A stretch of 40,059 bases of DNA. Source: a virus. Shown in pieces: positions 766 through 18,746 of this stretch; the stretch's first letter is position 1; every line of letters begins with the position of its first letter. The stretch spans positions 1-40,059 of the IMG/VR virus record IMGVR_UViG_3300008110_000309; one strand, given 5' to 3'. The translations under genes and the position numbers were made by a program. Under the pieces are notes generated by a model that was given only the letters and a program-made list of their open reading frames with translations, was not told the DNA's origin and did no database searches.

Positions 766-791
766 TCACCCACCCACACGAGGACACGACC

Positions 792-1811: not shown

Positions 1812-1828
1812 CCTGACCCAGTTATCAT
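1800..1828 (+). promoter_or_regulatory. Sigma-70-type promoter for the 1886-3611 operon
   Basis: TTGACA at 1800-1805, a 17-bp spacer, and TATCAT at 1823-1828. The first gene of the operon starts 58 nt beyond the -10 box. The -35 box sits in the right arm of a perfect palindrome, which suggests regulation. Confidence 0.75.
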
Positions 1829-1885
1829 TCCCATTGCCAAGCGGCACCCCGTCGCTTGGTGTAGCCCAACCACCCGGAGGTAGGT

Positions 1886-2170: not shown

Positions 2171-2373
2171 TGGAGTACACGGCAAGTTGCGGACACATCA
2201 CGCTCCGGGTCTACGTTGGACCCGGAGTACCCAACCTCTCCATCGAGGACAACGACAGCAACGTCGGCGTCTGCATCCGAGCGACCGACATCACCACCAT
2301 CAAGCTCTTGCGGCAATCACTCACGCACATCGTTGACACCCACAAGCACCGAGAGGAGCAGAGCAATGACTGA
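2170..2373 (+). CDS. Small phage protein, unknown function
   Basis: The product has 67 residues and is not recognised. The ATG at 2170 overlaps the stop of the previous gene by one base, so translation is probably coupled. The sequence has a beta-rich N-terminal half (MEYTASCGHITLRVYVGPG) and a helical, His/Lys-rich C-terminus. A single Cys-Gly-His near residue 7 is not enough to call a metal site. The gene overlaps the next start by 8 nt. Confidence 0.6.
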   Translation: MEYTASCGHITLRVYVGPGVPNLSIEDNDSNVGVCIRATDITTIKLLRQSLTHIVDTHKHREEQSND

Positions 2374-2833: not shown

Positions 2834-2848
2834 CCAGAGGACACACCC

Positions 2849-3259
2849 ATGAGCGAGTTCACGCCCGAGCAGAACCAGAACCTGACCGCCCGTACCGACG
2901 AGCTGATGCGCCACATGCACGGCAAGCTCCCGGATATGAACACCCTCAACGCCATGAAGATGCTCGCCAACGTCTTTATGAACAACGTCAAGGCGGTCGA
3001 CCCGGAGTTGGCCGAGCGCGAGGGGCTGATGGGGGCAATCGAAGGTGCGGCATTCGTTGCCGCGATTGGCCGAGACGAGTCGGTCGCTCCGTTCGAGTAC
3101 CTGAAAATCATGGCCCTTGCTCTCTTCTCCGAGCCGTCGGAAGCGTACGGGGCCAAGCTGAAGATGTACGATGACGCGATTGCCTGCGTCAAGGCTGGCA
3201 AGCATGTCGCCGCCATCTCCATCCCGGAGCGCAACACCGACGAGGGGGCCGAGTCGTGA
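2849..3259 (+). CDS. Helical phage protein, paralog of the preceding gene
   Basis: The product has 136 residues. The ATG at 2849 follows an AGAGGACAC ribosome site with a 15-nt gap after the previous gene. It shares the A-x-x-x-A-x-x-V-x-A-[IL]-GRDE block and the general helical layout with the upstream gene (2366-2833). No catalytic motif is seen. Its TGA overlaps the GTG of the next small gene (GTGA at 3256-3259). Confidence 0.7.
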   Translation: MSEFTPEQNQNLTARTDELMRHMHGKLPDMNTLNAMKMLANVFMNNVKAVDPELAEREGLMGAIEGAAFVAAIGRDESVAPFEYLKIMALALFSEPSEAYGAKLKMYDDAIACVKAGKHVAAISIPERNTDEGAES

Positions 3260-3411
3260 CCCGAGTGCCGCTCACCGGGACGAATTGCCCCGCTTGCCGA
3301 TGGGACGAGAACTACCCCGCCAAAGAAGACGACGACGGCCGAACGCTGGCCGTCGAATGTGGGCGCGGGGACTGCGGGTTCGTTGGCCACCTTGACCTTT
3401 TCACCATATGA
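3256..3411 (+). CDS. Zinc-ribbon-like small protein
   Basis: This is a 51-residue product that simple ORF length cutoffs would miss. It starts with GTG overlapping the upstream stop (GTGA), and its own TGA overlaps the next ATG (ATGA at 3408-3411), so it is locked into the operon on both sides. It has two cysteine pairs, CPAC near residue 11 and CGRGDC near residue 38, separated by an acidic segment. That arrangement fits a small zinc ribbon. Function is unknown; nucleic-acid or protein binding would be usual for this fold. Confidence 0.65.
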   Translation: MTRVPLTGTNCPACRWDENYPAKEDDDGRTLAVECGRGDCGFVGHLDLFTI

Positions 3412-3611
3412 CCATGCTTAACGACAGCCATCGCGAATACCTTGAGGCTCTGCGCGACTCCGGCAAGACCAACATGTACGCCGCTGGGTCGTGGCTTCAG
3501 GACCAGTTTGGCTTGAGCCGGGACGATGCCCGCGTCATCCTGGTGCAGTGGATGGTCGAGAAGCAGACGGGCAAGGAAGTGAAGCCAGCTAGCCAGCTCG
3601 GCAAGAAGTAG
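3408..3611 (+). CDS. Small conserved-type phage protein
   Basis: The product has 67 residues. The layout EYLEALRDSG-TNM-A---L---FGLSR-DAR-IL--WM is a pattern I recognise from small hypothetical proteins in many phages; no function is assigned to them. The segment QFGLSRDDARVILVQWM looks like a single helix-turn-helix-like helical pair. The gene is last in the rightward operon and ends 10 nt before a strong hairpin. The ATG at 3408 overlaps the preceding stop. Confidence 0.7.
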   Translation: MTMLNDSHREYLEALRDSGKTNMYAAGSWLQDQFGLSRDDARVILVQWMVEKQTGKEVKPASQLGKK

Positions 3612-3621
3612 CGGCAAGCGA

Positions 3622-3654
3622 CAGGGGTAGTGGTCTAGCTGACCACTACCCCTG
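3622..3654. terminator. Bidirectional hairpin between convergent operons
   Basis: The arms CAGGGGTAGTGGTC (3622-3635) and its exact complement (3641-3654) flank a 5-nt TAGCT loop. It sits between the rightward gene ending at 3611 and the leftward RusA-like gene, whose TAG stop (3646-3648) lies inside the right arm. No strong U-run follows on either side, so it may act as an mRNA-end stabiliser or a weak terminator. Confidence 0.65.
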
Positions 3655-4005
3655 AATCGCTTCCAGCTCTAACTCTACGCGAGGATTGGCGCGGTCTATT
3701 CCGCCCACCCGATAGGTGACCTCAACTAACTGCACATCATCCCCGTAGCAGACGCCTTCGAGTGCGTCATGCAAACCCTTGGCGAAGAAGAGGAGGTCAC
3801 GCCTCCGCTTGTCAGGCCAGTAGGCCACGCCACGGAGACGGATGGGACCGACGATGCAGTCGTCCTTGACCTGCGCTCTGGCCAGCACATGCATGGCGTC
3901 CTTTCGCTGGCGGTATCGCTTGGACAGGAGCAAGCGACCACGAACCATGCCACCGATACGTTCGTTATCTCTGGCAAGCAAGCCATAGGGGATGACCAGT
4001 TTCAC
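3646..4005 (-). CDS. rusA: RusA-like Holliday junction resolvase, divergent active site
   Basis: The product has 119 residues, the normal length for RusA endonucleases, which cut four-way DNA junctions during phage recombination and packaging. The core P-DKRRRD-LL-FF-AK-GLHDALEG-----DD-Q (residues 64-92) matches the family pattern in which RRDLDN, a Lys, and a DD pair form the site. Asp70, Lys76 and the 89-90 Asp pair are present, but the usual second Asp and Asn are Leu72 and Phe73. It may be inactive or use altered metal binding. It is the last gene of the leftward replication operon, and its ATG overlaps the preceding stop (ATGA at 4002-4005). Confidence 0.75.
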   Translation of the reverse strand: MKLVIPYGLLARDNERIGGMVRGRLLLSKRYRQRKDAMHVLARAQVKDDCIVGPIRLRGVAYWPDKRRRDLLFFAKGLHDALEGVCYGDDVQLVEVTYRVGGIDRANPRVELELEAIQG

Positions 4006-4283
4006 AGGGAGAACCCGATACGCCGCGCCTCGGGGGGCAGGGCGTAGTCGTCGCCATCCACCTCGTCCGGTATCTCGATGACGCCGCCATGAAGCTGACC
4101 GCCGTCGACCACCAGCTCGTCATAGCCAGCCGCCACCAGCATGCGGAGGGTCTTCAGCAACTCCATTGCCACCACGCCCGCGTCGACCGCAGGGACATCG
4201 GCAATCTCAATGGCCAGCCCGTTGCGAACCACGGACACGTTGGCCTTTCGGTTCGTGAATACGTTCGTTTGCTTTCTTGCCAT
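4002..4283 (-). CDS. Small phage protein, unknown function
   Basis: The product has 93 residues. The ATG at 4283 is preceded by a GAGGTGCC ribosome site on the minus strand, although this makes the gene overlap the 3' end of the metallophosphoesterase gene by 77 nt in another frame. The start is basic (MARKQTNVFTNRK), the middle is helical and the C-terminus is acidic. No motif is recognised. The stop overlaps the start of the RusA-like gene. Confidence 0.6.
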   Translation of the reverse strand: MARKQTNVFTNRKANVSVVRNGLAIEIADVPAVDAGVVAMELLKTLRMLVAAGYDELVVDGGQLHGGVIEIPDEVDGDDYALPPEARRIGFSL

Positions 4284-5613
4284 GAGGCACCTCGCGCGGG
4301 GTCGCCATCGTCATGCCCACCAGACAGCCAGACTCATGGTAAAAATAACTCTCCATCCCCCGCACCGCACCCACGAATCCCTCAGCCGCATGCCACCCGT
4401 CAGGCGGACACAGGGCAGGGGCCGTTCGAACCACCACCCCGGCGATCGTTTGCACTTCACCGATGCTGTGTAAATGTCCGGTGTGAATCTCCCGACAGGT
4501 CGATGCGCCCCATTCCAGCGGGGCCTCGGCGGCCATCAGCTCACCCAACCGCTTGCGCGCCTTGTCCCCGTGGGCCGCCCCGATGAGGCACTTGCCATGC
4601 CGGATGTACTTCCGGGTGGTGCCGCGCTCGTCGATTCGCACCCGCTTGTCATTGCGGAAGTAGGCCGATAGGATTTGCCGCAGGGCGGTGGTCAGCACCG
4701 CGTCATGGTTCCCCGGCACCAGCACGACCTCGGTCGGGACGGACATCGCGCTCGACTCCACCATGTCGAACAGCACCGCCGCCCCGGACTCAATCATCTT
4801 CTCGATGCGGCCATCTCGGTCGAGGGCCGTGCCGCCCGTCGTCTGGCCATGCGGCGTGTCGTAATGGAAGTAGTCGCCCAGCATGAGAATCACGCGACGC
4901 TCCACCTGGCGCGCGTCGCCGTCGGCAATCAACTCCTCAATCGACTCGCGCAGAAGCCGGGTCGCAATGGCAATGTCGTAGTCCTGCCAGCCCGTCTCGC
5001 GGGACCAAGCGTACTTGCCAACGTGCGGGTCGGCCACCACGATGACTTGCATGACCCCGGTGCCGGACTTGCGGAGCGGCGGACGAACCCTTGCGTGCCG
5101 CACGCCAGACATCGCCCCGGCAATCATCGCCTCGACCTGTTCAAGCACAGACGGCCCCGCCTTCGGGCGGAGCCGGACGAACACGCGGTGCAGTTCGGTG
5201 ATTTGCGGAGCGCCATCCTCCCCGCGCGTGGCCGTTTCGTACTTGGTGGCCTCGCTCTTCTCGACCTCGAATCGGGTCAGGTCGGCGCCAATGTGCGCCA
5301 GTAGGTCGTCGACGGAACGGATGCGTCGGCCCAGACTCCGGGCCTCGGTCGCCCCGTCGCAATCGCGTTGCTCCACCTCCTGCTCCACGGACGGCGGGGC
5401 GGCAACGGCAGGGCGGGCAATCCGGCCCACCTTCACATGGTTCTTGCGCCGCTTGTTGCTGACCGCCGCCTCGGTACGCAGAGGGACATTGCCGTGGAAC
5501 TCCCGGTTCAATGCTTCGGCAACCCCTGACGCGGACACGCCGTTAGCCGTCAGCGTCAGGAACCTAGCGTACTCTTCAGGCGACCAAGGCGTATGGTCGG
5601 TTCGGATGCCCAT
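4207..5613 (-). CDS. Metallophosphoesterase with N-terminal helix-turn-helix domain
   Basis: The product has 468 residues. A calcineurin-type two-metal phosphoesterase core is clear: DPH (195-197), GD (246-247), GNHD (301-304), HGD (348-350) and GHLH (379-382), in the family order. Residues 8-57 (WSPEEYARFLTLTANGVSAS, then a second helix and NKRRKNH) look like a Myb/SANT- or HTH-like DNA-binding segment, so the substrate is probably nucleic acid, as with SbcD/Mre11-type or phage DNA phosphoesterases. A hydrophilic linker joins the two parts. It lies in the replication operon between helicase and resolvase. Nuclease activity is inferred, not shown. Confidence 0.8.
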   Translation of the reverse strand: MGIRTDHTPWSPEEYARFLTLTANGVSASGVAEALNREFHGNVPLRTEAAVSNKRRKNHVKVGRIARPAVAAPPSVEQEVEQRDCDGATEARSLGRRIRSVDDLLAHIGADLTRFEVEKSEATKYETATRGEDGAPQITELHRVFVRLRPKAGPSVLEQVEAMIAGAMSGVRHARVRPPLRKSGTGVMQVIVVADPHVGKYAWSRETGWQDYDIAIATRLLRESIEELIADGDARQVERRVILMLGDYFHYDTPHGQTTGGTALDRDGRIEKMIESGAAVLFDMVESSAMSVPTEVVLVPGNHDAVLTTALRQILSAYFRNDKRVRIDERGTTRKYIRHGKCLIGAAHGDKARKRLGELMAAEAPLEWGASTCREIHTGHLHSIGEVQTIAGVVVRTAPALCPPDGWHAAEGFVGAVRGMESYFYHESGCLVGMTMATPREVPHGKKANERIHEPKGQRVRGSQRAGH

Positions 5614-5784
5614 ACCTCTCCGGGGCAGAGGGGATGGCGGCTGGCACCGCGAGGGGAGGAACGGACCTCGCCCTTACGAGTGCGGTGGAACGGGTGGTGT
5701 TCGGGGGAGTCGGGCGCATGTCAAACCCGTGCCGCAAGCGGCAACCCGCACCTCGCTGTCGCACCCCGATGCCAGCGCGCCGTG
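5614..5784. other. Gap between helicase and phosphoesterase genes
   Basis: This is a 171-nt stretch within the leftward operon. It holds a 6-bp GC hairpin (5730-5743, TGCCGC-AA-GCGGCA) and one TTGACA on the minus strand (5724-5719) with no convincing -10 box 16-18 bp further on. It could be a weak terminator or processing site after the helicase gene. Confidence 0.4.
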
Positions 5785-7107
5785 CTATGCATGCATCAAT
5801 ATATCATTACGTCTCATGACTGCGCCAGCCTTTCGCTCCTCTGGCGACAGATAATCCGTGTACTCGCCGCGCTCCCACGCCAGCAAGCGCACCGACCCCA
5901 CGCGGTCGCCATAATGCCGATGCTTCATGACGTTGACCTGTGAGGTGTACGGCTCCTCGATGGTGTGAATCTCCTTGATGCGGTCGCGCACTGCCTTCAG
6001 CTCCTCCTTCGTCACATCCTTGCGAATGGCGCGCGCCAGCCCAAGCATGAACGTGGCAACCTCCTTCTTGTGCCCGCCTTGCTTGATGTATTCTTCTCGC
6101 ACCGGCCGATGCGACCGAAGGAAGTCCTGCGACAGACCCTGCTGGTTGAGCTGGGTGGCGACAAGAAACCTGACCCCGGTAGATTTGGCCAGCTCCAGCA
6201 TGGACGCGACCACTTGCCGAGACTGCCCGTGCAGGTCGCCCGTTCCCTCCACATGGTCGATGTGGTCGATGATGAATACGTCGGCGCCCCACTCAGCCGC
6301 CTCATGCGCCATCGTCCGCAATCCCTTGACATCCACAAAGCTGGCGTCCGCACAGCGCAGGTAGTCGATGCGCTCCTCCTGCTCCTTGAGTGCGGCCTGA
6401 ACCTTGGCGCGCACCGACTGGCCATCCGGCTTGGTCAGGTACTCGCCACTGACCACATCCCCCGGCAAAAGGCCAGCCTCCCGCGCCGCCCACTGCAAGC
6501 GGAGCTGATGCGCCGGAAGCTCGAACCCCGCGTAGTAGACCTTGCGCCCAGCCCCCACCCAGCGACGGGCCAGCGTGGACAGCAGGGTGGTCTTGCCGCT
6601 GTTGCTGGCGGCGGCGAGAAAGTCAATCTCCCCCGGCGACCAGCCGCCGCGCAGTCTGGCAAGTGTGGCAATCGGGTACGTCATGACGCTTGATGGGTCG
6701 CGCTCCAGGACCGAGTGCGCCAGCTCGACTTGCCGCCGCTGTGCCGTGCCAGCCGCATCGTCGACCGCCGCCGCCAACTCCCGCAGAGAGCGGAGCCACT
6801 GCAAGCATCGCTCGGCCATACTGCCGCCGCCAATGAACACATCGTGCAACAGCTCGGACACATACTCCGCACCACCCGCATGCTTCTCGGCCTCGTAGCT
6901 CCGCAGGAAAGCAAGGATGGTCAGCGGGTCAACGACCTGCCCACGCCCGACCATGGCTGTCATCGCTCGCCACAGCACCTGATGCCGCTTGTCGAGAAAA
7001 TCCTTCTTGTCCAGCCCCGCCTTGAGCAGTTCGTCCACCGCCTGAGGCTCTTGCAAACAGGCACACAGGATGGCGCGCTCCAGTGACTCGCGTTCGTGAT
7101 TCGACAT
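5785..7107 (-). CDS. dnaB: Replicative DNA helicase, DnaB-like
   Basis: The product has 440 residues, close to the usual length of DnaB. The N-terminal domain (residues 1-115) has the helical DnaB-N pattern (ERAILCACLQEPQAVDELL). The RecA-like domain carries Walker A AASNSGKTT (166-174), Walker B VFIIDHIDHV (277-286) and a downstream ATQLNQ sensor motif. This hexameric 5'-3' helicase would unwind DNA at the phage fork. No primase or polymerase is seen nearby, so those must come from the host or lie outside the window. About 170 nt without a gene separate it from the downstream phosphoesterase gene. Confidence 0.9.
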   Translation of the reverse strand: MSNHERESLERAILCACLQEPQAVDELLKAGLDKKDFLDKRHQVLWRAMTAMVGRGQVVDPLTILAFLRSYEAEKHAGGAEYVSELLHDVFIGGGSMAERCLQWLRSLRELAAAVDDAAGTAQRRQVELAHSVLERDPSSVMTYPIATLARLRGGWSPGEIDFLAAASNSGKTTLLSTLARRWVGAGRKVYYAGFELPAHQLRLQWAAREAGLLPGDVVSGEYLTKPDGQSVRAKVQAALKEQEERIDYLRCADASFVDVKGLRTMAHEAAEWGADVFIIDHIDHVEGTGDLHGQSRQVVASMLELAKSTGVRFLVATQLNQQGLSQDFLRSHRPVREEYIKQGGHKKEVATFMLGLARAIRKDVTKEELKAVRDRIKEIHTIEEPYTSQVNVMKHRHYGDRVGSVRLLAWERGEYTDYLSPEERKAGAVMRRNDILMHA

Positions 7108-7135
7108 GCACGGCTCCGTCCTACGGGTGAATGGG

Positions 7136-7300
7136 TTACTTCAGGGAGTCCAGCATTGCCTTCGACCAGCTCTCGAACGGGCGATAGATGGTCGACGAAG
7201 CATGCATCATCGACCACACATGCCGCAAGACCCGCATGCGCTCCTCTTCGCGAATGCGCTCCTCGAAGTCTTGCGGCGACTCGTCAAAGTCCCCAGCCAT
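7136..7300 (-). CDS. Small phage protein, unknown function
   Basis: The product has 54 residues and is too short for ordinary ORF cutoffs. The ATG at 7300 overlaps the TGA of the upstream gene by one base (TGATG), the coupling style used throughout this operon. The N-terminal half is a highly charged helix (QDFEERIREEERMRVLRHVW); the C-terminal half contains Trp and Met residues. It ends 28 nt before the helicase start, a place where helicase loaders or accessory factors often lie, but no motif supports that. Confidence 0.6.
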   Translation of the reverse strand: MAGDFDESPQDFEERIREEERMRVLRHVWSMMHASSTIYRPFESWSKAMLDSLK

Positions 7301-7476
7301 CACTCAGTCCACACGCCGTGGCGCTTCATGCGGGTGACCAACTCCTGCCATGTCAGGCACCGATAGATGGACAGGTTCGAAGAGCCGTACGACCACTCCT
7401 CCGTGTCGCGATTGTACCTGACGTACCCGCTGACCAGCAAGTCCAGCATGATTTCGGCATCACTTTGCGGCGTCAC
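7300..7476 (-). CDS. Small phage protein, unknown function
   Basis: I place the start at the GTG at 7476, which has GGAGGA just upstream on the minus strand; this gives 58 residues and a 17-nt overlap with the upstream gene. A TTG or ATG further upstream would overlap by much more. The sequence has a helical start (SDAEIMLDLLVSGYVRYN) and aromatic residues around EEWSYGSS, and ends with a helix (LTWQELVTRMKRHG). It looks like a small winged or helix-hairpin fold. Function is unknown. Confidence 0.5.
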   Translation of the reverse strand: MTPQSDAEIMLDLLVSGYVRYNRDTEEWSYGSSNLSIYRCLTWQELVTRMKRHGVWTE

Positions 7477-7645
7477 GATTCCTCCGGGATTGAATGGCAA
7501 GCCACTTGCGCGCCCTGCCCATGAGACGTAGCACATACCACGTTGGCGTCGATACCAGCAACATCACCCCCAGCAGGGGCATGACGACCAGCGCAAACAG
7601 ACCCGTCAGCACAAGGTCGATGGTGTCATACAGCCCGCGCTTCAT
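7460..7645 (-). CDS. Small membrane protein
   Basis: The product has 61 residues. The ATG at 7645 lies 20 nt inside the end of the upstream gene; the longer frame to 7771 is a proline-rich shadow of that gene. Residues 9-40 (LVLTGLFALVVMPLLGVMLLVS and beyond) form one long or two short membrane helices, followed by a basic tail (RARKWLAIQSRRNRD) that should stay in the cytoplasm. A small inner-membrane protein inside a replication operon could be a superinfection or host-takeover factor; this is a guess. Confidence 0.6.
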   Translation of the reverse strand: MKRGLYDTIDLVLTGLFALVVMPLLGVMLLVSTPTWYVLRLMGRARKWLAIQSRRNRDAAK

Positions 7646-7877
7646 AGCCCTCCCCCGCCTTGCCGACGCGCTCCAGCTTGTGGTAGAGGACGGCGAACGC
7701 CAGCTCGTACAAGTCATGCGCCGTGATGTACCCCTCCACGATGGTGGTGGAGGCGGGATTGCTCTTGGCAAACAGCGGGTCGCCGTTCGGGCCGCGCAGG
7801 CGGTCGGTCGGATTCATGTTCCCGATGGCGCGCTCAATCCGCAGAGCAACTTCCTGTAGCGGCTCATGGTCAGGCAT
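7626..7877 (-). CDS. Small phage protein, unknown function
   Basis: The product has 83 residues. The ATG at 7877 overlaps the upstream stop by 8 nt and gives a sensible product start (MPDHEPLQEVALRIE); the longer frame to 7952 runs through the upstream gene. The protein is mostly helical, with a conserved-looking segment STTIVEGYITAHDLYELAFA. No motif is recognised. Confidence 0.6.
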   Translation of the reverse strand: MPDHEPLQEVALRIERAIGNMNPTDRLRGPNGDPLFAKSNPASTTIVEGYITAHDLYELAFAVLYHKLERVGKAGEGYEARAV

Positions 7878-8085
7878 CGGCGACCACCCCCATCTCAGCC
7901 GGACACGGATACTCGCTATCGAGCGCAACCCCAGCCACCCGTGCAATCGCAATCAGGTACGCCTCATCCTCGCGGCAGATACGCAACTCCTCTTCTAGCC
8001 GGACGCACTTGGCCCGTAGGTCATGGACTTGGGTCGGCAGGTTCGCCTCCAGTGTTTTCCGAAACCCCGTGATGGTGCTGGTCAT
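7870..8085 (-). CDS. Small coiled-coil protein, unknown function
   Basis: The product has 71 residues. The ATG at 8085 has an excellent GGAGGAAG ribosome site on the minus strand, so the 65-nt overlap with the end of the upstream HNH gene appears genuine. Residues 8-45 form a heptad-like charged helix (LRAKCVRLEEELRICREDE). Three cysteines are present but not in metal-binding spacing. Function is unknown. Confidence 0.6.
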   Translation of the reverse strand: MTSTITGFRKTLEANLPTQVHDLRAKCVRLEEELRICREDEAYLIAIARVAGVALDSEYPCPAEMGVVADA

Positions 8086-8416
8086 GCCCTTCCTCCAAGC
8101 GTAGGTGATGTTGCCACTTTGCCTCGACGGCGACCGCCGCCGACTTTAGATGAATAACATAACGTTGCTCAAAGCGCAAGACCCCGATGCGGTGTAGCTC
8201 CTCATGCTCTTCATAAGTCAACGGGACAATCCACGCGGCGTCTGCCTTCCGCCCCATGCCTCCGTTGGCCACATGAGCATTCACGCATGGCGTTCGTCCA
8301 CTCACCACGGAAGGCTGGGCGCGAATCCACTCGACCCGCGCCTCGCCTCCGTAGGCTCGCTCAAACTCCCGCTTCTTGCGGCGCGGGTTGCTCGACCGCA
8401 ATCGGCTCCTCTTCAC
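8021..8416 (-). CDS. HNH/Ref-like endonuclease
   Basis: The product has 131 residues from a GTG with GGGAG about 7 nt upstream. After a basic N-terminus (KRSRLRSSNPRRKKREFER), the segment C-x-NAH-x6-G-x-GRKAD-x3-WIVPL-x5-H-x2-LH-x-IG-x4-FE matches the His-Me-finger core of small phage HNH nucleases found in recombination and replication modules. The first His of NAH and the later EEHEELH would supply catalytic and metal ligands. The C-terminus is His/Glu-rich. In context it would process recombination or replication intermediates; that is inferred. Confidence 0.7.
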   Translation of the reverse strand: MKRSRLRSSNPRRKKREFERAYGGEARVEWIRAQPSVVSGRTPCVNAHVANGGMGRKADAAWIVPLTYEEHEELHRIGVLRFEQRYVIHLKSAAVAVEAKWQHHLRLEEGHDQHHHGVSENTGGEPADPSP

Positions 8417-8993
8417 GCTTGCGCTCCCGTGGCTTGCGCGGCGGCTCGCCGCACATCTCGCGAAACTTCCGCATGTAGTTGCTCCCGAACAGGCGGTTCA
8501 AGCGGAAGGCGTTGATGCCAGCCTCGCGCATCTCCTCGACCGAGAGGGGAGCGCCATTGCGACTGGCCTTCGCCTCCAGGTACTTGCTCACCAGCTTGTC
8601 GCGTACGGCTTGCCGCGCTTGCTCTCGCCGCCCGTTCATGATGAACAGCACACTCTCCAGCCTGCCGCTTCGCGCCAGCATGCCGCGCACTCCGGCAGTC
8701 GAGCGATTGCCCATGGCACGGGCCAGCGCGGTCAGGTGCCGGATGCTGGCATTGCTGGACAGAATGGACACCGCCTCGTCCGGAGACATGCGGTACTTCT
8801 TCGGGCTGGCCCCGGCGCGAATGCAAATCTGATGCACCCGCTGTCGCGACATCCCGAACTCCTTGGCAATCTCCCGCATGCTCTTGCGCTCCGTCTCGTA
8901 CAAGTGACGGATGTACTCGTTGCGCTCCTCGGGGCGTGTGAAGCCCCCAAGCTTCGGCGCAAACTTCTGCCTGTCCTCAGGCGTTGAGTGCAT
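8361..8993 (-). CDS. Helix-turn-helix protein, sigma-region-4-like
   Basis: The product has 210 residues from the ATG at 8993 (upstream alternatives at 9011 and 9014 lack a better ribosome site). Residues 31-52 (MREIAKEFGMSRQRVHQICI) form a clear helix-turn-helix like sigma factor region 4 or sporulation-type regulators. A second possible HTH follows (IRHLTALARAMGNRSTAGVRGML). The C-terminal half is basic and ends in a charged, proline-rich tail. It could be a transcription regulator or a replication-origin binder, since it lies next to the initiator-like gene. No sigma region 2 is present. Confidence 0.65.
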   Translation of the reverse strand: MHSTPEDRQKFAPKLGGFTRPEERNEYIRHLYETERKSMREIAKEFGMSRQRVHQICIRAGASPKKYRMSPDEAVSILSSNASIRHLTALARAMGNRSTAGVRGMLARSGRLESVLFIMNGRREQARQAVRDKLVSKYLEAKASRNGAPLSVEEMREAGINAFRLNRLFGSNYMRKFREMCGEPPRKPRERKREEEPIAVEQPAPQEAGV

Positions 8994-9678
8994 ATGACTG
9001 ATTGACCTCATCAAGAATGTTGTCTAGCTCGTCCTTGGGTTGCGCCCGAACTGGCGCAACCCATTCCTCTTGCCAGCGACCGCCTGTGCCGAAGAACGTC
9101 GACGCTTGCATGACGTACTCCGTGCCGACGCGATTGGTCGCCTCGCAATACTTGGCGTACCGACGCGCCGCATCGACCAGCAGGGTGGGGTCCACCCCTT
9201 CTCGCACACGGGCGGCAAACGCCTTGGCGGCGAGTGGTCGCGGATTGCCACCGCCGCGCTTCGGGTATGCCGACCATGCTTGGTCGAACCATAGGCTCGG
9301 CTCCTCGGGCCGCTTGCGAATACGCGGCACGGGGGTCGGAGACTTGCGCCGCTCACGAAACGCCTTCTGCCGACGCGCCGCACCGCCGCGCTCCTTAATC
9401 CCCGGCATCATGTACTCATCGAAATACCGAAGCCGACCGCTGGGCAGAAAGAAATGCCCCATGAACGGACTCGGTATGGCAACTCCCGTGATAGCCCACA
9501 CCTCATCGCTGGACATAGTACGCAGGTCATGCAGGGGGTTCTCCCGGCAATAGTTGAGCATGCGGACATAGCCGACAATCAGGGCGTCTACAGTTGTCTT
9601 GCACTGGCTGGCAATAAGTCGCGTCGATGATGCGGTCAGGATTTCCGCAGGGAAGCACAGCGCGTCTTTGCGAATCAT
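8977..9678 (-). CDS. Replication initiator / helicase-loader-like protein
   Basis: The product has 233 residues; the ATG overlaps the upstream stop (ATGA at 9675-9678). The C-terminal segment F-x2-AW-x2-YPKRGG ... A--F---V-----LL-A--RY--Y------GTEYVMQASTFFG-GGRWQEEW (about residues 130-208) is the signature seen at the end of many phage replication (O/DnaT-like) proteins and their relatives, which recruit the helicase to the origin. The N-terminal 100 residues are less clear but could be a winged-helix part. Its place upstream of a DnaB-type helicase gene supports the role. Confidence 0.65.
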   Translation of the reverse strand: MIRKDALCFPAEILTASSTRLIASQCKTTVDALIVGYVRMLNYCRENPLHDLRTMSSDEVWAITGVAIPSPFMGHFFLPSGRLRYFDEYMMPGIKERGGAARRQKAFRERRKSPTPVPRIRKRPEEPSLWFDQAWSAYPKRGGGNPRPLAAKAFAARVREGVDPTLLVDAARRYAKYCEATNRVGTEYVMQASTFFGTGGRWQEEWVAPVRAQPKDELDNILDEVNQSYALNA

Positions 9679-10061
9679 CCGGCCATGCTCCCGACTTCGG
9701 TTGTAACGTAACGCATAACGGCCTGTCCTCGGTTGACCTTGAAGGCAATCTCCTCAAGCTGGGCATTCAGCTCGAAGAACTCCGCTCGCTCATTGGTCAT
9801 CATGGCAAGGAAGTCGAGGTAGTCCTTGTGGCACTCAGCGGCTTCGGCCAGCGACGCCTCCGTGACCTTGCGCCCCTCCGCCGCCGCCATCACCCGCAGG
9901 TACTCGGCGATGCGGGACCGCTCGGCCTTTCGCAAGCTGTCGGCCACGCCCCCTGGGCCGTACTTGGCCCACAGGATAGCCGCCTTCTTGCGGACATGGC
10001 GATGCTCGTCGATTAGCTCCTCGATAGGCTGAATGCCAGCCCGAAGCTCTGCCTCCTGCAT
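9675..10061 (-). CDS. Helical phage protein, unknown function
   Basis: The product has 128 residues. The ATG at 10061 overlaps the upstream TGA by one base (TGATG) behind a GGAGGG ribosome site. It is predicted almost wholly helical with repeated charged stretches (RKAERSRIAEYLRVMAAAEG; NERAEFFELNAQLEEIAFK), which suggests a coiled-coil dimer. It overlaps the initiator-like gene by 4 nt, so it may work with it. No domain is recognised. Confidence 0.6.
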   Translation of the reverse strand: MQEAELRAGIQPIEELIDEHRHVRKKAAILWAKYGPGGVADSLRKAERSRIAEYLRVMAAAEGRKVTEASLAEAAECHKDYLDFLAMMTNERAEFFELNAQLEEIAFKVNRGQAVMRYVTTEVGSMAG

Positions 10062-10273
10062 CACTTGACCCTCCGGAGTCGGAACTTGTTCTCGTCCGGG
10101 TGCTTGTAGATGACGTACCGCACATCATGCAGTCTGGCCATGCGGCTCACAGCGGAGCGGCATGACCGAATGCCGCCCCAGCAAGTGATGACGAACGAAC
10201 CGCCGACCTTGGTCTCCAGCCATGGCCACTTGAACGGACGGCCACCGGATGCCTTCCGCTTCTTCGCGGCCAT
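10061..10273 (-). CDS. Small basic phage protein (DUF7303-like layout)
   Basis: The product has 70 residues and is very basic at both ends. The layout F-WPWL--KVGGSFV-------RSC-SAVSRMAR-----YVIYKH resembles small phage proteins of the DUF7303 type (from memory), which have no known function. The basic charge and position beside an SSB-like gene would fit nucleic-acid binding. The ATG overlaps the upstream TAA by one base (TAATG at 10271-10275 on the minus strand). Confidence 0.6.
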   Translation of the reverse strand: MAAKKRKASGGRPFKWPWLETKVGGSFVITCWGGIRSCRSAVSRMARLHDVRYVIYKHPDENKFRLRRVK

Positions 10274-10863
10274 TAGCGCGACTCCTTGTACGAGATGTGG
10301 ATGGTCGCCGCCAGCGCGGCCACAGACCGCAGGGCCTCGGTCGTGTACTCGATGTTATGGCTCGCCAGAATCTGCGTGACGAAAGAGTCCGCCTGACCAA
10401 CGGCCCACGCGATATCCTCGCCAACACGCTGGCGCCGCTCCTCGCGAATCTGGTCGACCTTGGCCGCAACCGCCTCTGCCGCATCGCCCTCGACAGGCTC
10501 ATCAAACGGCATCGCCTTCTCGGCCACAGGCTGGGCCACAGGCTTGGCCACGGGCGCACCGGACAGGGGGAGGTGTTCCGTCTTGGCCTTGTCGCGAGCG
10601 CCGAGGACGTTCAGGTAGCCCTCAGCCGTCCGCTCAAACGTCCAGTCCTTGCCGACCAGCTCGTCCGGCGACTCCATGCCCTTGCGACCAAGCTGTTGCA
10701 TGAGCGCCTTGTTGCCGATGAAGGTGCTGACATCGCTCCCATCATACGCCATGCCCGTAATCTTCCAACGGGAATCCCACGACGGGTTCTTCGACGCAAC
10801 GGACTCGACAGCGCGGACGTTCAGGACGAGATGCTGGCCCTTCTCGATAGTGACTGACTGCAT
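10273..10863 (-). CDS. Candidate single-stranded DNA-binding protein
   Basis: The product has 196 residues and is first in the leftward replication operon, 30 nt from the strong promoter's -10 box. The N-terminal 95 residues look beta-rich with aromatic residues (WDSRWKITGMAYDG; GKDWTFERTAEGYLNVLG), as expected of an OB fold. A Pro/Ala/Glu-rich linker (about 100-135) and a helical C-terminal part follow. Function is inferred from fold impression and operon position, and the family is not recognised with confidence. Confidence 0.45.
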   Translation of the reverse strand: MQSVTIEKGQHLVLNVRAVESVASKNPSWDSRWKITGMAYDGSDVSTFIGNKALMQQLGRKGMESPDELVGKDWTFERTAEGYLNVLGARDKAKTEHLPLSGAPVAKPVAQPVAEKAMPFDEPVEGDAAEAVAAKVDQIREERRQRVGEDIAWAVGQADSFVTQILASHNIEYTTEALRSVAALAATIHISYKESR

Positions 10864-10893
10864 GGTGCCTCCACGGCAACAGGGTGAGCCAGT

Positions 10894-10922
10894 ATTATCG
10901 CAACATCGACGCCTTATGTCAA
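10894..10922 (-). promoter_or_regulatory. Strong leftward promoter for the replication operon
   Basis: On the minus strand TTGACA (10922-10917), a 17-bp spacer and GATAAT (10899-10894). It is followed by an AGGCACC ribosome region and the ATG at 10863. A C/G-rich 5-bp hairpin (10927-10939, CCGGC-TTC-GCCGG) lies just upstream. Confidence 0.8.
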
Positions 10923-10926
10923 CCCC

Positions 10927-10939
10927 CCGGCTTCGCCGG
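10927..10939. repeat. Short GC hairpin upstream of the replication promoter
   Basis: CCGGC, TTC loop, GCCGG. It is placed between the end of the late leftward operon (stop at 11068) and the replication promoter, so it may help end late transcription. There is no U-run, so this is weak. Confidence 0.35.
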
Positions 10940-11067
10940 ACACGCGCGCGGTGTTTGTAGTTTCCTTCTTACTACACTGAACTCTGCATGGCGAGATAGA
11001 GTAGCAGTAGTAGTTTTCTGTATACTGGCAAGAATGGTGCCAAGCATACAGGCCGTAACCCGTTACG

Positions 11068-11535
11068 TCACCGAAACGCCAACGCCGCCAGAATCGCCCC
11101 CACCGCCGCCGCCGTCGTCATCGCCGTCAGGGATGGCTTGGGCATTGGGGCGGGGGCAGGCACTCGCGCAGACTCCGCAACGGCAAGTGCGCGGGTCAGC
11201 ATCCCCACGCGCGCCTCACACGATAGCACAACTGCCGTGCATGACGCAAGGGCCTCGTCTGCCACATCGCGGCGCACATACACGGTGTCATTGCGAACAA
11301 GCGTGTCCGTCGTGCGATGGGTGACGTAGCGCGTGACTGCCTTTGTCATGACAATCGTGTCGCGCTGATACGCCTGCTCGTAGGCGGCCATGCTATCGCG
11401 CAAGCGAGTTATAGCCAGGCGATAGTTTAGCTCGCCAATGGCCGCCGCCTGCCTGGCCTGTAGCGTGGCAAGTGCGTGCCCGGCAATCGCAGACGCGGCA
11501 ATTGCCAGCAATAGCCAGCGTGCCGGGCTACGCAT
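11068..11535 (-). CDS. Rz-like spanin or membrane lysis accessory protein
   Basis: The product has 155 residues. The ATG at 11535 overlaps the endolysin stop by 8 nt. An N-terminal membrane helix (residues 6-25, WLLLAIAASAIAGHALA) is followed by a helical periplasmic-type region with charged heptads (LRDSMAAYEQAYQRD). A second hydrophobic stretch lies at the C-terminus (AMTTAAAVGAILAALAF). One N-terminal anchor plus a coiled coil next to an endolysin is the i-spanin layout; the C-terminal membrane segment is unusual and might make it a u-spanin-like or different membrane protein. It is last in the late operon. Confidence 0.55.
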   Translation of the reverse strand: MRSPARWLLLAIAASAIAGHALATLQARQAAAIGELNYRLAITRLRDSMAAYEQAYQRDTIVMTKAVTRYVTHRTTDTLVRNDTVYVRRDVADEALASCTAVVLSCEARVGMLTRALAVAESARVPAPAPMPKPSLTAMTTAAAVGAILAALAFR

Positions 11536-12148
11536 ATTCTTCAAGCCGGAAGTTCGGGACATGCTCCGGGTCATTTTTCCGCCCCGGGGCGACCTTGGCG
11601 TGAGTCGTTACCGGAACCGGCCCGTACTTCGCCCGCACCGCCGCAATTAGCGTTTTCATTGCCGCCTTCTGCGCGTCGGTCAGCGGCTCCTTGCCGTCGT
11701 TCTTATTCGAGAAACAGAGACCGACCGAGATGCCGTTCACGTCCTTGTGGCCGTTCCACTCGGCCTTGCCCGCGTGCCACGCCCGGCGGTCATACGGGAC
11801 GACCGTGTAGACCTTGCCGTCCCGCCCGACGAGCGCGTGGTAGCTGACCTTGCTCTCGCTCGACACGCCGAACTTCTTGCCGTGCCAGACCGCCGCCCAC
11901 GACAGTACCAAGCCGAAGCCGAGGTTCATCAGCACCTCACTGACCGGGGGCGTCGTCAGCAACAGCACGTTGAAGAGCGCCCCGGCGACGATAAACGCCA
12001 GCCCCGTGCGGACGACGTGGTAGCTGACCTTGCCGAACTGGTCAATCTGCTTCACGCCGTCACCAATCTTCGTGAAGAGCATCACATAGAACGCGAGCCC
12101 GCCAAGACAGATGAGGGCGTTGGCGATAGCATTAATCGACTGGAGCAT
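11528..12148 (-). CDS. Holin-like membrane domain fused to truncated amidase endolysin
   Basis: The product has 206 residues from an ATG with GGAGG 6 nt upstream. Residues 5-90 carry three membrane helices (ALICLGGLAFYVMLF; GLAFIVAGALFNVLLL; LGFGLVLSWAAVW) of holin type. Residues 99-206 are an Amidase_2/AmpD-type N-acetylmuramoyl-alanine amidase (SYHALVGRDGKVYTVVP, AWHAG, N-x2-SVG, TTHAKVAPGRKNDP). Tyr103, His183, Lys191 and Asp193 match active-site positions. The first strand, with the zinc-binding His near the usual residue 17 of T7 lysozyme, is missing where the holin part joins. The KVSYH pentapeptide and its DNA occur twice, 60 residues apart. Either this is a real holin-endolysin fusion with altered chemistry or a deletion product. 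Confidence 0.7.
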   Translation of the reverse strand: MLQSINAIANALICLGGLAFYVMLFTKIGDGVKQIDQFGKVSYHVVRTGLAFIVAGALFNVLLLTTPPVSEVLMNLGFGLVLSWAAVWHGKKFGVSSESKVSYHALVGRDGKVYTVVPYDRRAWHAGKAEWNGHKDVNGISVGLCFSNKNDGKEPLTDAQKAAMKTLIAAVRAKYGPVPVTTHAKVAPGRKNDPEHVPNFRLEEYA

Positions 12149-12422
12149 CTTTGGCCTCCGGAAAGATTTTCCCAATGACAATCTCGACCCCACGCTGGCC
12201 CAACACCCCGAGGAGGAACGCCATCGCGCTCATCGTCTGGGAGCTGGCCGCGATGCCCGTGACCTCGAACACCACCGGGGTCAGGAAGTAGGCGCTCGAC
12301 GTGCCCGCGCTGATGGCGAGGAGGTTGTCCCGCATATTGCCGTGACTGGCCTTCCCGACCGCAATCAAGGAGCCGAAGAATCCGGCAACGACGAGCATAA
12401 TGCTATTTTTGTCCTGTGTCAT
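12132..12422 (-). CDS. Holin
   Basis: The product has 96 residues with three hydrophobic stretches (IMLVVAGFFGSLIAVG; LLAISAGTSSAYFLTPVVFEV; TMSAMAFLLGVLGQRGVEIV) and a charged C-terminus. Size, topology and place just before the amidase gene fit a phage holin that would permeabilise the inner membrane. An AGGTGA ribosome site precedes the ATG at 12422. It overlaps the next gene by 17 nt. Confidence 0.7.
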   Translation of the reverse strand: MTQDKNSIMLVVAGFFGSLIAVGKASHGNMRDNLLAISAGTSSAYFLTPVVFEVTGIAASSQTMSAMAFLLGVLGQRGVEIVIGKIFPEAKDAPVD

Positions 12423-12425
12423 ATA

Positions 12426-15400
12426 TCACCTAAAGGGTTCACGCCGCTGGTCAGTAACCAGCGAGCGATAGCGGTCCAGTACACTGCGGTACAACTCGGC
12501 GCGATTGCCCGTTTCGCGATAGTCTTCGACCATTCTGGGCGTCAGCATCTCAAGGGCGGGATGCGGCACGGCTTCGCCAGCTCCCGCAATAGCGTCCTCG
12601 TTCAGCATGATGCCATAGAGCAACGCCTCTTCCTGCGGACCCTGCGCCATGCGCCGCGTCAAGAAATCAGCAGGGGTCTCGCCAATCTCCTCATCTGGCT
12701 GTCCCGGAGTTGGGAAGTACCCTGCCTCGCCAAGGCCTTGCGTGAGGTCCGTTTCAAACGACTGACGCGCCCGAACGGGGTCAAAGACCGAAATCAAGCC
12801 GCCACGCGACTCTGTGCGAACGCGGCCGAACGGAGAGACCTTGGCTGGGAGAGATTCGCGAAGCCCGGGGATGCGCGAGCGGAACGCGCCACCCATGCGG
12901 CCAAGCATTCCCTCGCCCTGCCCAATATCTCGCGAGATGATGTTGCCACTCTCGTCAACGTCAAGTGCCTGAGCAAGCTGGCTTACTACCTGCGGGACAA
13001 CCATGCCACCATACTGGTCAACGGCACGACTGATGTACTGATTGCGCACTTCGGGTTCGCGCGAGTACCTAGCGGCCTGAACCATCTCGCCCATTGCCGA
13101 TGCACCGCGCCCGTACGGAGACTCCGCAACAGTTCCAGCAATCCCGGCGGCGCTTGCTCTGGCCATCTCAATGGCGCCACTGATGATTCCTCCGTTGCTC
13201 GTCATCTCCTCATGCATCTGCGCGCCAATAGACATCAGCATGGCCTGCGGGCCAAGCAGACCAGAGAGGCCAATCCACTTGCCACCTCGCCGGATGGCAT
13301 TGGGCACCTTGTTCTCCTCGTCCCAGCGAGCGCGCTCGTTAGGGTCAACCGGATAGGCCCCGGTCATATCCCCATTGCCAGCCAGCGTGTATCCAAGGTA
13401 AATCCACCCGGCGCCAGTCGTCCCAAGCGCAAGGCGACGCACCAGGCGACGCTGGGCCTCGTCGCGAAGCGTGGCATTTGCCATCTTGCGAAGGTCGCCA
13501 GCCGACCCGGCAACGACGCCAAGGGGCGTTCGGCCAATCGCTTCAGATGCCATAGCCGACGGCGTCTGGGCAAACGGGAGCATCGCCACGCCAGCCAGCC
13601 GAAGCTCCGGTTGCTTCGAGGCACGCATCGACATCCACTTGGCGGCGGCTGTCAGTCGCGTATCGTTCTGCCATGTAGCCTCGGCGGCATCGGAGGCCGC
13701 TCGCACCAGCATTTGGCTGGTCGGACGATTGGCAATGGCGTCGGCCTTACGGGCCAGCTCCCTTCCCTTATATCCTGCGGCCAGTGCCATAGCGCGAGCC
13801 TGAGACTCGACGCTCGATGCATACGCAACTTCGTAGAAGGGCTGGTCAGCGGCGGCAACCGAGCGGCGAACCCACTGCACCACAGACCGCAGGATGGGGT
13901 TCTGCAACTGCGTCTCGCGAAGCCAGTCATAGCGCCGCGAGGCACGTTCAATAAGGAGCTTGCCCTCGGCAGACGCGGCGTACTTGCCCGTGGGATTCAT
14001 CAGGAGCCAGGCCTGCTTGGCGCCAGTAAGGCCAGCCTTGGCAATTCGACGAACGCTGGGGGAGGTCAGTCCGCCAGCGGTTCTCGTTCCACTCAGCCCA
14101 GAAATCAGGCTATCGTAAATAGGTGCAAGCACATTCAGTGCGACAGTTCTATCACCAGCTTGTTGGACATTGGAGACGAGGTCTCGCAGAGGCCGAGCAA
14201 GCGAAAGCAGGAGAGAGGCCTGGACCCCTTCGCCAATCCGGTCAAAGATGCTTGCCGACTTTGCGCGAGCCTTCGCCAAGCCGCGCTGGGCGGCGGCTAC
14301 ATCGCCACTGCGAAGCGCCCCTAAGATTTCCTGCACTAGCTCATCGTCAATCTGCCGACCGCCAGCAAGCTTCTGGGCGCGAAGGAGCCATGCGGCAGGG
14401 TCGTCAGTAGAATCCAGCGAAAGCTTAAGCAGGTTCAGGTCGCGACCCGTCTGGCTAGCGTCCCGCGTAATCCGCGTATACGCCTGAATCACTCGGTCCT
14501 CTAGGGCATCTACAAGCCGAGACGCCAGCTCTCGGTCCTGCACCGAGGCAAACTGGTCGTTCATCAACTTGCGCGCCCACGCCGCCCGCTGGATGTCGCG
14601 CTTATACTGCATGCTCAGGGCCAGCATCTCAGGGCCAGCCAGCTTTCTGGCAGGGTCGCGCGTTGCCAGATTCTCTGCCGTCGTAGCCAGCATCTCGGCA
14701 ATCTGCGTCTCAACCTCCCACGGCACAGTCATGCCGCGAGGAACAAGCCCCGTCTCAATCAAGCTCTCGCTAATCTCGCGCACCTCGTCACTGCCAGCGC
14801 GGTCATTAAGGATGCGCGGAGCCTCGCGAAGCAGGCTCTCCGGCGAGTCCATAAGGTCCGGAAGCAAGTCCGCAGAATAGGGCGCAACGGGCTGGCCAAT
14901 CCGCGCGGCATTTCTGGCGGCCGTTGCGGCGGTCGTCTTCGACGCCTGCATGCGAGCCTGCCGCGCAAGCTCCTGCTCCACAATAGCGCGAGCCGCTTTG
15001 CTCTTGACGCCCTCGCGAGCGGCACGACCAAGCGCACCGCGCATAAACTTGTAGCCGAAGACGCCAGTAGCAAGCAGGATAGCCGCACCCCACGGGATGC
15101 CGTCCTCCTCGTCTACACTGCCATCCTGCGCCTGCGCCTCTCGCGAGAAGGCCATGCCACTGGCCGTAATGACCAGGCCCTTCTTATTGCGAATGGCATC
15201 AAGGACGCTCTTCAGGGCCTCGGCCCGTGCCGCTGGCTTTGCCGGGTCATATTCCTTGACAATCGCGCTGGGAAGCCTGTCGATAATCTCGGCTCGCACA
15301 GACGCAATGGCAGGCGTATCCAGCGGAAGTAGGAATGCGCGAAACCGCTCTAGCGGGATAACCGAGCTGTTGTACGACTCAAGGTATGAAACGGGCCTGC

Positions 15401-18400
15401 GCAAAATCTGTTCGGCATTCGCCGCCACAAGTGCAATGGCGCTCTTAAACGCCACCGGGGTCTTTGACGGCGGCAGGTTTGCCAGCGTCTGTCGGGCAAT
15501 GTCAGCGGCCTTAATGGCCCCGGTGGGATTGGCGTCGCGCAACGCGGCAATCGCCTTGCCAAGGCCAGCGACAATCTCCTGTCGAAGGACTAGCTCGCGG
15601 TCGGCGGCATCAAGAAATGAATACGCCTGATTCCAGTCCCTGCCTTTCTTAAACGCAAGAGCGGCCTTTAGCAGATTGTCGTTCAGGTCAACCGCTGAAA
15701 CACTCGCCATCTTGGCATCTACTTCAGACACCAGTCGCTGTGCGGCATCGGCAACCATGGCTTCGGGGCTTTCATAGCGACGAGAGCCAGCGGCAGAAAT
15801 AACCTGTTCTGGGTTCATTTCTCGCGCCGCCTCGTCAAGCACCTCGTCATCCGTAAACTGGTCAAACTGTCGGCCAGTTACATCGCGAAGATTCTGTCGC
15901 ATCCGGCCAAGCCGGGGGCCGACGGACTCGGCATACTTGGCGATGTTTGCTTCAGTAAGCGTACCCCAGGTATTGCCGCCCATACGCACATGCGGTTCAG
16001 TCAGCACCTCTCCTGCGGCAGAAGCCAGGGTTCTGCCAGCCGCATAGCGAGAGCTTTCACTGCCCTGATTCCCGCGAACCTTTTCAAGCGCCGTTGCAAA
16101 CATGTCAATAACGACATCAGCGTCCATTGACTCATCGGACGGAAGAAGCGATTCCGCAAACGCGCGAACAGCCCCCCGACCATCCTGGGACGCACTGGCC
16201 AGAATGCGCAACGCCCCAATGCCCTCGTTGGCCGGAGCGGCCTCGCTAAACACCTCGTCAACAACGCGGTTGATAGACGCCGGAGTAGCAAATGCGCGAA
16301 CATCAATGCTCTCGTCGCCTACGCGAGTTGGGGCCCAGATATCATCGCTGTAGATGGCAAGGTTATCGGCAAGAAAGTCCGTAAACTTGCCAATCATGTA
16401 CATGCCACCAAACTCTCTACTGGCTCCACCAGTGCTAGCGCGAGTAACGGCTAGCGAACGTCCGCCAAGCCCACCCTCAGTAACAGCCTTGCGGAAAAAC
16501 TCAGAAGCCGAAGTCTTAGCCTGATGTGTAATAATCAGGTCGTCGATAAACTCGCGACCAAACTTATTCGCCAACGCAGGGGCAATGGCCATCCCGCCAA
16601 GAACCATCGCGTAGCGGTTGCGCTCTTCCGGCGTGTCACCAAGCGCGTAACCCCCAACGTATCCCGTCATAGGATTGACGGCATAGTACATCGGGATATT
16701 GGCATCACCAGAGAATCCAGCCTTCTCTAGCGCGTCATCAACCTGCGCAAGTGCCGTGCGAAGCGCGCGTTGCTCGTCAAGTAAAATGTTTTCGCGGCCA
16801 AGCTGGAACGATAGATTGGCGCGAATATTTCGGAGCTGGGTGATGTACTTGTTCTTGGCAAGCTTGCTCTTGCTCTTGGGGGGAGCGGGAATGGCAACCT
16901 GCTCTGGGGCCTGCGCAACCACGCGAGGCTTAGCCGCTTGCACGGGCTTAGCAACCGGAGAGCCGCCAAGACGGGCAATCTCAACATTCAGATTGGCAAT
17001 CTCAGCATTGATGTCATTAACCATCTGCGAGACAATGGCAACGTCTCGGTCATTCTTGATGCCAGCCTTGGCAATCTCCGCCGCTTGCTGGGCCAGTTCC
17101 TTGCTCCGCCGAAGCATTGCCTTGACGTTCCCCTTTGCCGCGCGAACCTCAGGCGAGGGCTTGGCAATAGGGGCAATCGGAGGAGCGGCCTCGCCAATCG
17201 GCGTTGCGGCTGGGCTACCACGGACTGCGCCAGCGGCGGAGCGGCGAGGGGCAGGAGGCACTGCCGCGCCAGCCGCAACCACCGGAGTTGCAGGCGGTGT
17301 AGCGGCGGGCGTAGCAACAGGCGTAACGGGAGGCGTTACAGCCGCCGCCGGAGCCTCAGGCGGAAGCATGGCTTCATCAAGAATCTGCGCCAGCGTCTTA
17401 GGACCGCGAAAGGCGGGCTGTCCCGGCTTGCGCGGAGGAATGCGAGCGGCGCGCTCAGCCTCCTCAAGAATCTCCGGAGCAAGCTCAATCTCTCCACGGC
17501 GAGCCAACTCGGCCAGCCGAATCTGCTCCTCTTCCGGCAACGCACTTCCTGGAGTGGCTCCAGCCGCATTACGCTCAGCCATGCGAGCAAGCCGAGCCGC
17601 CTCTTCAGCCGCCACACGCTCCGCATCCTGCGCCGCCTTGGCGCGCGCCGCTTGCCGAGCAAACTTTGGCGTAAGCTTAACGTCTGGGACTGCGGCACCA
17701 GCTCCCTCGGGCGGAAGCATGGCATCGTCAAGAATGTCATCAAGCGTCCTTGGCCCCTGCATAGGCTCAGGCCCAAACTGCGGACCAGGCGCCCTGGGGC
17801 CAAGTTCCGGCCCAGGACGACGCATGTAGTCAATGCTCTTTCGGACTTGGCCAATCCCCTTGCCAACCAACCCCATCCCATATTCCGCGCCAAACATAAG
17901 CGGAAGCATGGCGGCAATATCACCAGCAAATCGACCCGTCTTGGTCTGGGCAAGCTCCTCAGCCGCCCGTCCAATCGGCGCATAAACACTGCGGCCAAGG
18001 AACGTCTCTGGCTCGGCGCCAGTCTCTCGATACATCCGGCTGGCCTCAGCCAACTGGCCAGTCAACGACTGACGAGGGTCGTCAGACACGGCTCCTGGCG
18101 CAATAAACAGCGGAATATCAACAGCGGCACCAGCTCCAGTTCCAATGGCCGCTCTTTGTGCTAGCGATGCTTCAGGGCCACCAAGCGTACGAATAGCCTT
18201 TGCGGCACGACGCGCACGAACCGCCGTGCGCCCAGCTCCAACCGTACGCGCCGCAGTGCTAACGCCACCAAGAACAGTGGGAAGGGCGCGAGCGCCAATC
18301 AAACTGACGGCAATATCAGGAGCAACCGTGCCCAAGCCGCCAGCAATCTTTGCCCCGGTGGTTTGAGCTGGGCGGTATCGGCTTTCAATTTCGCGCGCAA

Positions 18401-18746
18401 TCGCGCGAACGTCTTCCGCCTTTTCCGGCGAAACAATGCCAATCGACTCTGCAAGATTAGCGGCGGCTTGCGTCGTACGCGCCTCCGCACGATTAGCAAA
18501 CCGCCCAATCTTCCCAAGCAAGGTCTGGTCGCGCTGGAACTGGCGAAACTTTTCCTCCTTGCCAGTCACAGCATGACCGAGTTCCATAAACCTGCGCTCG
18601 GCCTCTTCGGTACTCTGAATCAGTCCTCTGTCAATCTCATCCCGAACGCGAGCAATAGCCGTCTCGCGCGGGATTCTGCTTGTCATGGACGTAGACTCAG
18701 CAACAATACGCGGAGGCTTATCGTCAAGTCCTGGAATCCGTGCCAT
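12426..18746 (-). CDS. Giant multi-domain virion protein, internal/ejection-type (large polyvalent-like)
   Basis: The product has 2,106 residues, the largest gene in the window. It is mostly helical and Ala/Arg-rich, with a Pro/Ala-rich linker at about residues 465-530 and possible membrane helices near 285 and 1215 (PWGAAILLATGVFGYKF). Two copies of a peptide repeat, GPRTLDDILDDAMLPPE (about 330) and GPKTLAQILDEAMLPPE (about 446), flank a charged helical region. The C-terminal third (about 1500-2106) resembles the ends of phage large polyvalent proteins (LPD38-like, from memory) that are packaged and ejected with DNA. No peptidase or lysozyme motif is evident. In podoviruses the ejection proteins lie between tail genes and lysis genes, as here. 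Confidence 0.6.
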   Translation of the reverse strand: MARIPGLDDKPPRIVAESTSMTSRIPRETAIARVRDEIDRGLIQSTEEAERRFMELGHAVTGKEEKFRQFQRDQTLLGKIGRFANRAEARTTQAAANLAESIGIVSPEKAEDVRAIAREIESRYRPAQTTGAKIAGGLGTVAPDIAVSLIGARALPTVLGGVSTAARTVGAGRTAVRARRAAKAIRTLGGPEASLAQRAAIGTGAGAAVDIPLFIAPGAVSDDPRQSLTGQLAEASRMYRETGAEPETFLGRSVYAPIGRAAEELAQTKTGRFAGDIAAMLPLMFGAEYGMGLVGKGIGQVRKSIDYMRRPGPELGPRAPGPQFGPEPMQGPRTLDDILDDAMLPPEGAGAAVPDVKLTPKFARQAARAKAAQDAERVAAEEAARLARMAERNAAGATPGSALPEEEQIRLAELARRGEIELAPEILEEAERAARIPPRKPGQPAFRGPKTLAQILDEAMLPPEAPAAAVTPPVTPVATPAATPPATPVVAAGAAVPPAPRRSAAGAVRGSPAATPIGEAAPPIAPIAKPSPEVRAAKGNVKAMLRRSKELAQQAAEIAKAGIKNDRDVAIVSQMVNDINAEIANLNVEIARLGGSPVAKPVQAAKPRVVAQAPEQVAIPAPPKSKSKLAKNKYITQLRNIRANLSFQLGRENILLDEQRALRTALAQVDDALEKAGFSGDANIPMYYAVNPMTGYVGGYALGDTPEERNRYAMVLGGMAIAPALANKFGREFIDDLIITHQAKTSASEFFRKAVTEGGLGGRSLAVTRASTGGASREFGGMYMIGKFTDFLADNLAIYSDDIWAPTRVGDESIDVRAFATPASINRVVDEVFSEAAPANEGIGALRILASASQDGRGAVRAFAESLLPSDESMDADVVIDMFATALEKVRGNQGSESSRYAAGRTLASAAGEVLTEPHVRMGGNTWGTLTEANIAKYAESVGPRLGRMRQNLRDVTGRQFDQFTDDEVLDEAAREMNPEQVISAAGSRRYESPEAMVADAAQRLVSEVDAKMASVSAVDLNDNLLKAALAFKKGRDWNQAYSFLDAADRELVLRQEIVAGLGKAIAALRDANPTGAIKAADIARQTLANLPPSKTPVAFKSAIALVAANAEQILRRPVSYLESYNSSVIPLERFRAFLLPLDTPAIASVRAEIIDRLPSAIVKEYDPAKPAARAEALKSVLDAIRNKKGLVITASGMAFSREAQAQDGSVDEEDGIPWGAAILLATGVFGYKFMRGALGRAAREGVKSKAARAIVEQELARQARMQASKTTAATAARNAARIGQPVAPYSADLLPDLMDSPESLLREAPRILNDRAGSDEVREISESLIETGLVPRGMTVPWEVETQIAEMLATTAENLATRDPARKLAGPEMLALSMQYKRDIQRAAWARKLMNDQFASVQDRELASRLVDALEDRVIQAYTRITRDASQTGRDLNLLKLSLDSTDDPAAWLLRAQKLAGGRQIDDELVQEILGALRSGDVAAAQRGLAKARAKSASIFDRIGEGVQASLLLSLARPLRDLVSNVQQAGDRTVALNVLAPIYDSLISGLSGTRTAGGLTSPSVRRIAKAGLTGAKQAWLLMNPTGKYAASAEGKLLIERASRRYDWLRETQLQNPILRSVVQWVRRSVAAADQPFYEVAYASSVESQARAMALAAGYKGRELARKADAIANRPTSQMLVRAASDAAEATWQNDTRLTAAAKWMSMRASKQPELRLAGVAMLPFAQTPSAMASEAIGRTPLGVVAGSAGDLRKMANATLRDEAQRRLVRRLALGTTGAGWIYLGYTLAGNGDMTGAYPVDPNERARWDEENKVPNAIRRGGKWIGLSGLLGPQAMLMSIGAQMHEEMTSNGGIISGAIEMARASAAGIAGTVAESPYGRGASAMGEMVQAARYSREPEVRNQYISRAVDQYGGMVVPQVVSQLAQALDVDESGNIISRDIGQGEGMLGRMGGAFRSRIPGLRESLPAKVSPFGRVRTESRGGLISVFDPVRARQSFETDLTQGLGEAGYFPTPGQPDEEIGETPADFLTRRMAQGPQEEALLYGIMLNEDAIAGAGEAVPHPALEMLTPRMVEDYRETGNRAELYRSVLDRYRSLVTDQRREPFR

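Follow-up and report, generated by a model that had tools for sequence, protein, structure and literature searches.

Amidase_2-type zinc amidases, among them AmpD, AmpDh2 and T7 lysozyme, hold their metal with three ligands: a histidine on strand beta-1, a second histidine, and an aspartate or cysteine. In the Ts2631 endolysin, substitution of the histidine corresponding to the first of these (His30) brought activity down to 17.2% after one hour (PMC4573324). Phage holins are small proteins with transmembrane helices, encoded next to the endolysin gene. In relatives of the phage described here, the lysis cassette comprises two holins (holin-1 and holin-2), an AmpD-type zinc amidase as the probable endolysin, and a spanin-like protein, each in a separate open reading frame (ORF). 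Judging from these families, opening of the membrane would fall to the holins and cutting of the peptidoglycan to the soluble amidase.

The window, which is the whole 40,059-base virus record analysed here (IMG/VR IMGVR_UViG_3300008110_000309), carries phage genes including a terminase, a major head protein, a DnaB-like helicase and a collagen-like tail fibre. The order of its lysis genes is that of the cassettes of the IMG/VR relatives L008 and L045, but 170 bp are missing, and holin-2 and the amidase share one frame. This fused ORF is best explained as the product of a 170-bp deletion that is private to one contig and joins two ordinary lysis genes (probability about 0.93). The phage family did not evolve the fusion as a feature of its own, and whether or not the deletion occurs in nature, it joins genes that relatives keep apart.

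The fused frame and its missing zinc ligand

A single stop-free frame of 206 aa (11528–12148, minus strand) encodes the holin-2 core followed by an N-terminally truncated Amidase_2 domain. A sequence-only reading had described a holin-like domain of three helices here, continuing into an AmpD-type amidase, and its residue numbers for His89, Tyr103, His183, Lys191 and Asp193 are all correct. The holin-2 portion (11865–12148, minus strand) has three predicted transmembrane helices and ends in WHGKKFGV, the usual tail (ITGVKAIDRKTG..) being gone. It is up to 97% identical in amino acid sequence to the holin-2 ORFs of L008, L009 and L032; residues 1–90 of the fused ORF match PHROG holin 2508 weakly (E = 0.053). 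In an AlphaFold model of the fusion, the holin part forms helices at residues 2–25, 40–63 and 69–92, with pLDDT mostly 84–89 and 64–69 around residues 21–40. Three modelled helices, and the place of this protein as a separate ORF ahead of the amidase in relatives, are the marks of a phage holin.

The retained C-terminal amidase part (11528–11864, minus strand), aligned against 22 intact amidases, keeps the SYH, TTH and GRKND motifs and has lost the first zinc histidine. It is up to 87% identical in protein sequence to relatives with L008- or L045-type cassettes. The Pfam Amidase_2 profile (PF01510) matches residues 99–195 with E = 6.8e-23, at profile positions 37–130 of 131; because the match begins only at position 37, the N-terminal third of the domain is absent. 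As the sequence-only reading had noticed, the amidase begins at its second motif. The window copy retains Tyr103, His183, Lys191 and Asp193, but unlike AmpD-type zinc amidases it has no first third of the domain and so only part of the three-ligand set. In the model of the fusion, pLDDT falls to 30–44 at residues 96–152, where the input alignment was misregistered; residues 98–157 were almost uncovered because MAFFT had paired the KVSYH peptides of the two domains with each other. The absence of a confident fold in the amidase part therefore says little for or against the fusion.

The missing residue corresponds to His24 (VLHADA), which is invariant in 19 aligned intact amidases and present in all intact relatives. 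In a model of the intact L008 amidase, His24 lies on a strand (residues 20–26) that is followed by a helix (31–38). The best solved match to this model is AmpD (2y2c, E = 8e-10), with T7 lysozyme and the Ts2631 endolysin also matched, and profile alignment pairs LHADAS with LHYTS of AmpDh2; the intact relatives are therefore like the known zinc amidases by both fold and profile. Since the ligand histidine, its strand and the helix are all lost, inactivity is expected, and the product of the fused allele is most likely a membrane-anchored, inactive amidase remnant. It had been proposed that the enzyme would either be inactive or need another ligand, such as His89. The former is the expected outcome, whereas the recruitment of His89 is not supported: in intact two-gene relatives, separate holins of both subtypes share this residue (WHGKK and YHAKK), which is therefore an ordinary conserved holin residue that did not arise as a substitute ligand.

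The 170-bp gap and the two-gene relatives

The junction lies at 11864/11865 (minus strand), where alignment and exact-arm measurement show that exactly 170 bp are missing relative to L008, L009, L004, L015 and L019, with 1 bp of microhomology (G). The arms of the junction are identical to those relatives over 111–114 bp on the amidase side and 23–38 bp on the holin side. Lost in the gap are the tail of holin-2, the start of the amidase and residues 1–39 of the latter (beta-1 with His24, helix alpha-1 and the linker), and the window matches the intact amidase only from residue 40 onward. Relocation of the amidase N-terminus to another place in the window was rejected, as only chance-level matches were found (best E = 0.29).

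An 18-bp perfect direct repeat (11836–11853 and 12016–12033), also seen in some relatives, encodes KVSYH once in holin-2 and once in the amidase, two unrelated domains that have this peptide in common with nearly equal codons. Deletion between the two repeats was considered and rejected; both copies are still present and the junction is elsewhere.

An IMG/VR scan with the fused protein as query yielded 43 loci. When searched with the intact amidase, 40 of these contained the amidase N-terminus (KVIVLHADASPNE), while L013, L032 and L043, the remaining three, are cut by contig ends. Whole-query matches span about 755–806 bases in relatives versus 618 in the window, and ungapped blast pieces from most loci split at a shared query position, 558/559. 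In the relatives, the holin-2 ORF closes with a tail like ...KKFGVITGVKAIDRKTG.. and is followed by a separate amidase ORF of about 150 aa (MSCTNPSPNHNTRGAQAVKVIVLHADASPNERGCLSWLQSSESKVSYHALVGRDG...). In L005 a 222-aa ORF (MNPDLLAELRRLF..., 3219–3887) sits between holin-2 and the amidase, and a similar ORF begins past holin-2 in L032, after 4340. A search for homologs with the same fusion had been named beforehand as a check, and the fusion was found in none of the 43 relatives. The suggestion of a membrane-tethered endolysin under holin control as a lysis design thus finds no backing, as every relative that can be judged has two genes and a complete amidase.

The junction itself was also sought elsewhere. 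A degenerate junction pattern had no match among viral contigs, and the exact junction had none among genome contigs, in scans from which records closely similar to the window may be missing. No other contig of the same species spans the lysis cassette, so that a single contig of the exact species covers the site. Another IMG/VR record, L047, is 99.95% identical over its positions 1–6387 to window positions 31264–37650 and so belongs to the same species, but this stretch does not include the lysis genes.

Assembly error, natural deletion or functional fusion

A fusion that was both real and functional would represent an unusual lysis design. A membrane-tethered endolysin in which another residue, such as His89, had taken over as zinc ligand would fit the in-frame joining, the retention of the other catalytic residues and the apparent constraint on the retained codons, for which dN/dS is about 0.2 versus relatives, similar to intact pairs or slightly above, with no stop and no visible decay. 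The codon pattern is consistent with a very recent loss or an assembly error, and a product still in use would also fit. As for the frame, 33% of deletions sampled at the site yield an in-frame fusion, so the open frame says little and is no argument for function. Given in addition that His89 is a conserved holin residue of intact systems, that the fold has been deprived of beta-1 and alpha-1 and that no homolog shares the fusion, such an enzyme is very unlikely. A recently fixed fusion, in which a membrane-anchored amidase that is re-liganded or binds peptidoglycan non-hydrolytically would time lysis while another, unrecognised lysin did the cutting, is likewise very improbable.

No second lysin was found in the contig, which may not be a complete genome, with Pfam and PHROGs; a phage with the fused allele alone should therefore lyse poorly. 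This expectation favours either a mistake of assembly or a defective variant of recent origin, and the balance between the two is about even. An assembly error, to which we give one chance in two, would mean that the phage possesses the 170 bp but the contig passes over them, in a region where related phages hardly differ, and that the true genome encodes a normal amidase. In keeping with this, the junction falls within a tract that is 93–100% identical to several other phages, the 111–114 bp beside it are the same in L008, L009, L015, L019 and L004, the 18-bp repeat flanks it on both sides, and no other contig shows it. Moreover, as the contig showed no further lysin, a deletion that truly existed should be harmful to the phage and should not dominate the consensus. 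However, the junction overlap is only 1 bp and lies away from the repeat, and there are no Ns; a simple k-mer collapse therefore does not explain the gap.

A clean junction without Ns is also what would be seen if illegitimate recombination at 1 bp of microhomology had recently removed the 170 bp, leaving a variant that is defective or impaired in lysis. Breakage and joining are frequent at this site, given that recombination has made the cassette a mosaic. Such an event would nevertheless have disabled the sole recognisable lysin, and its junction is unseen in any other contig; we consider its chances somewhat below even. Homologs with a full separate amidase had been named in advance as what would refute the fused design, by showing an assembly deletion. 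They are indeed the rule (40 of 43) and speak against that design, but they do not single out assembly as the cause, a natural deletion being about equally likely. With either origin of the deletion, the locus is a caution: where a metagenomic phage contig seems to show two genes fused and a catalytic residue gone, the cause can be a deletion in that one contig, which comparison with relatives exposes at once.

Lysis cassette, mosaic history and neighbouring genes

Holin-1 (96 aa; 12132–12422, minus strand) matches PHROG 2359 holin with E = 1.8e-10. In some relatives, a lysozyme-like ORF that may be a second endolysin lies just before holin-1 (L008, 3149–3724); it is absent from the window. 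On the other side of the fused frame is a 168-aa ORF (11068–11574, minus strand) with one N-terminal hydrophobic helix, which is spanin-like in position; an 88% identical copy adjoins the intact amidase in L045, L046 and L024.

L045 and L046 are the closest syntenic relatives, about 90% identical to the window over 6069–11864 and about 81% over 12156–16410. Their amidase is intact, in the two-gene arrangement, and their holin-2 is different (39% identity). Identities over a sliding 40 bp delimit a tract of L008/L009 type within this L045-type backbone, at about 11681–12360, which contains the deletion. The deletion is therefore younger than the transfer of this tract or arrived with it. The ends of the blast matches had suggested that the junction was itself a mosaic boundary between L008 and L045 types; this was rejected, since L008-type sequence lies on either side of it.

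Beyond the cassette, a 2106-aa ORF (12426–18746) has only a weak match to an internal virion protein (PHROG 6651, E = 1.7e-4), and the collagen-like tail fibre (1012 aa, 23141–26179) contains many Gly-X-Y repeats.
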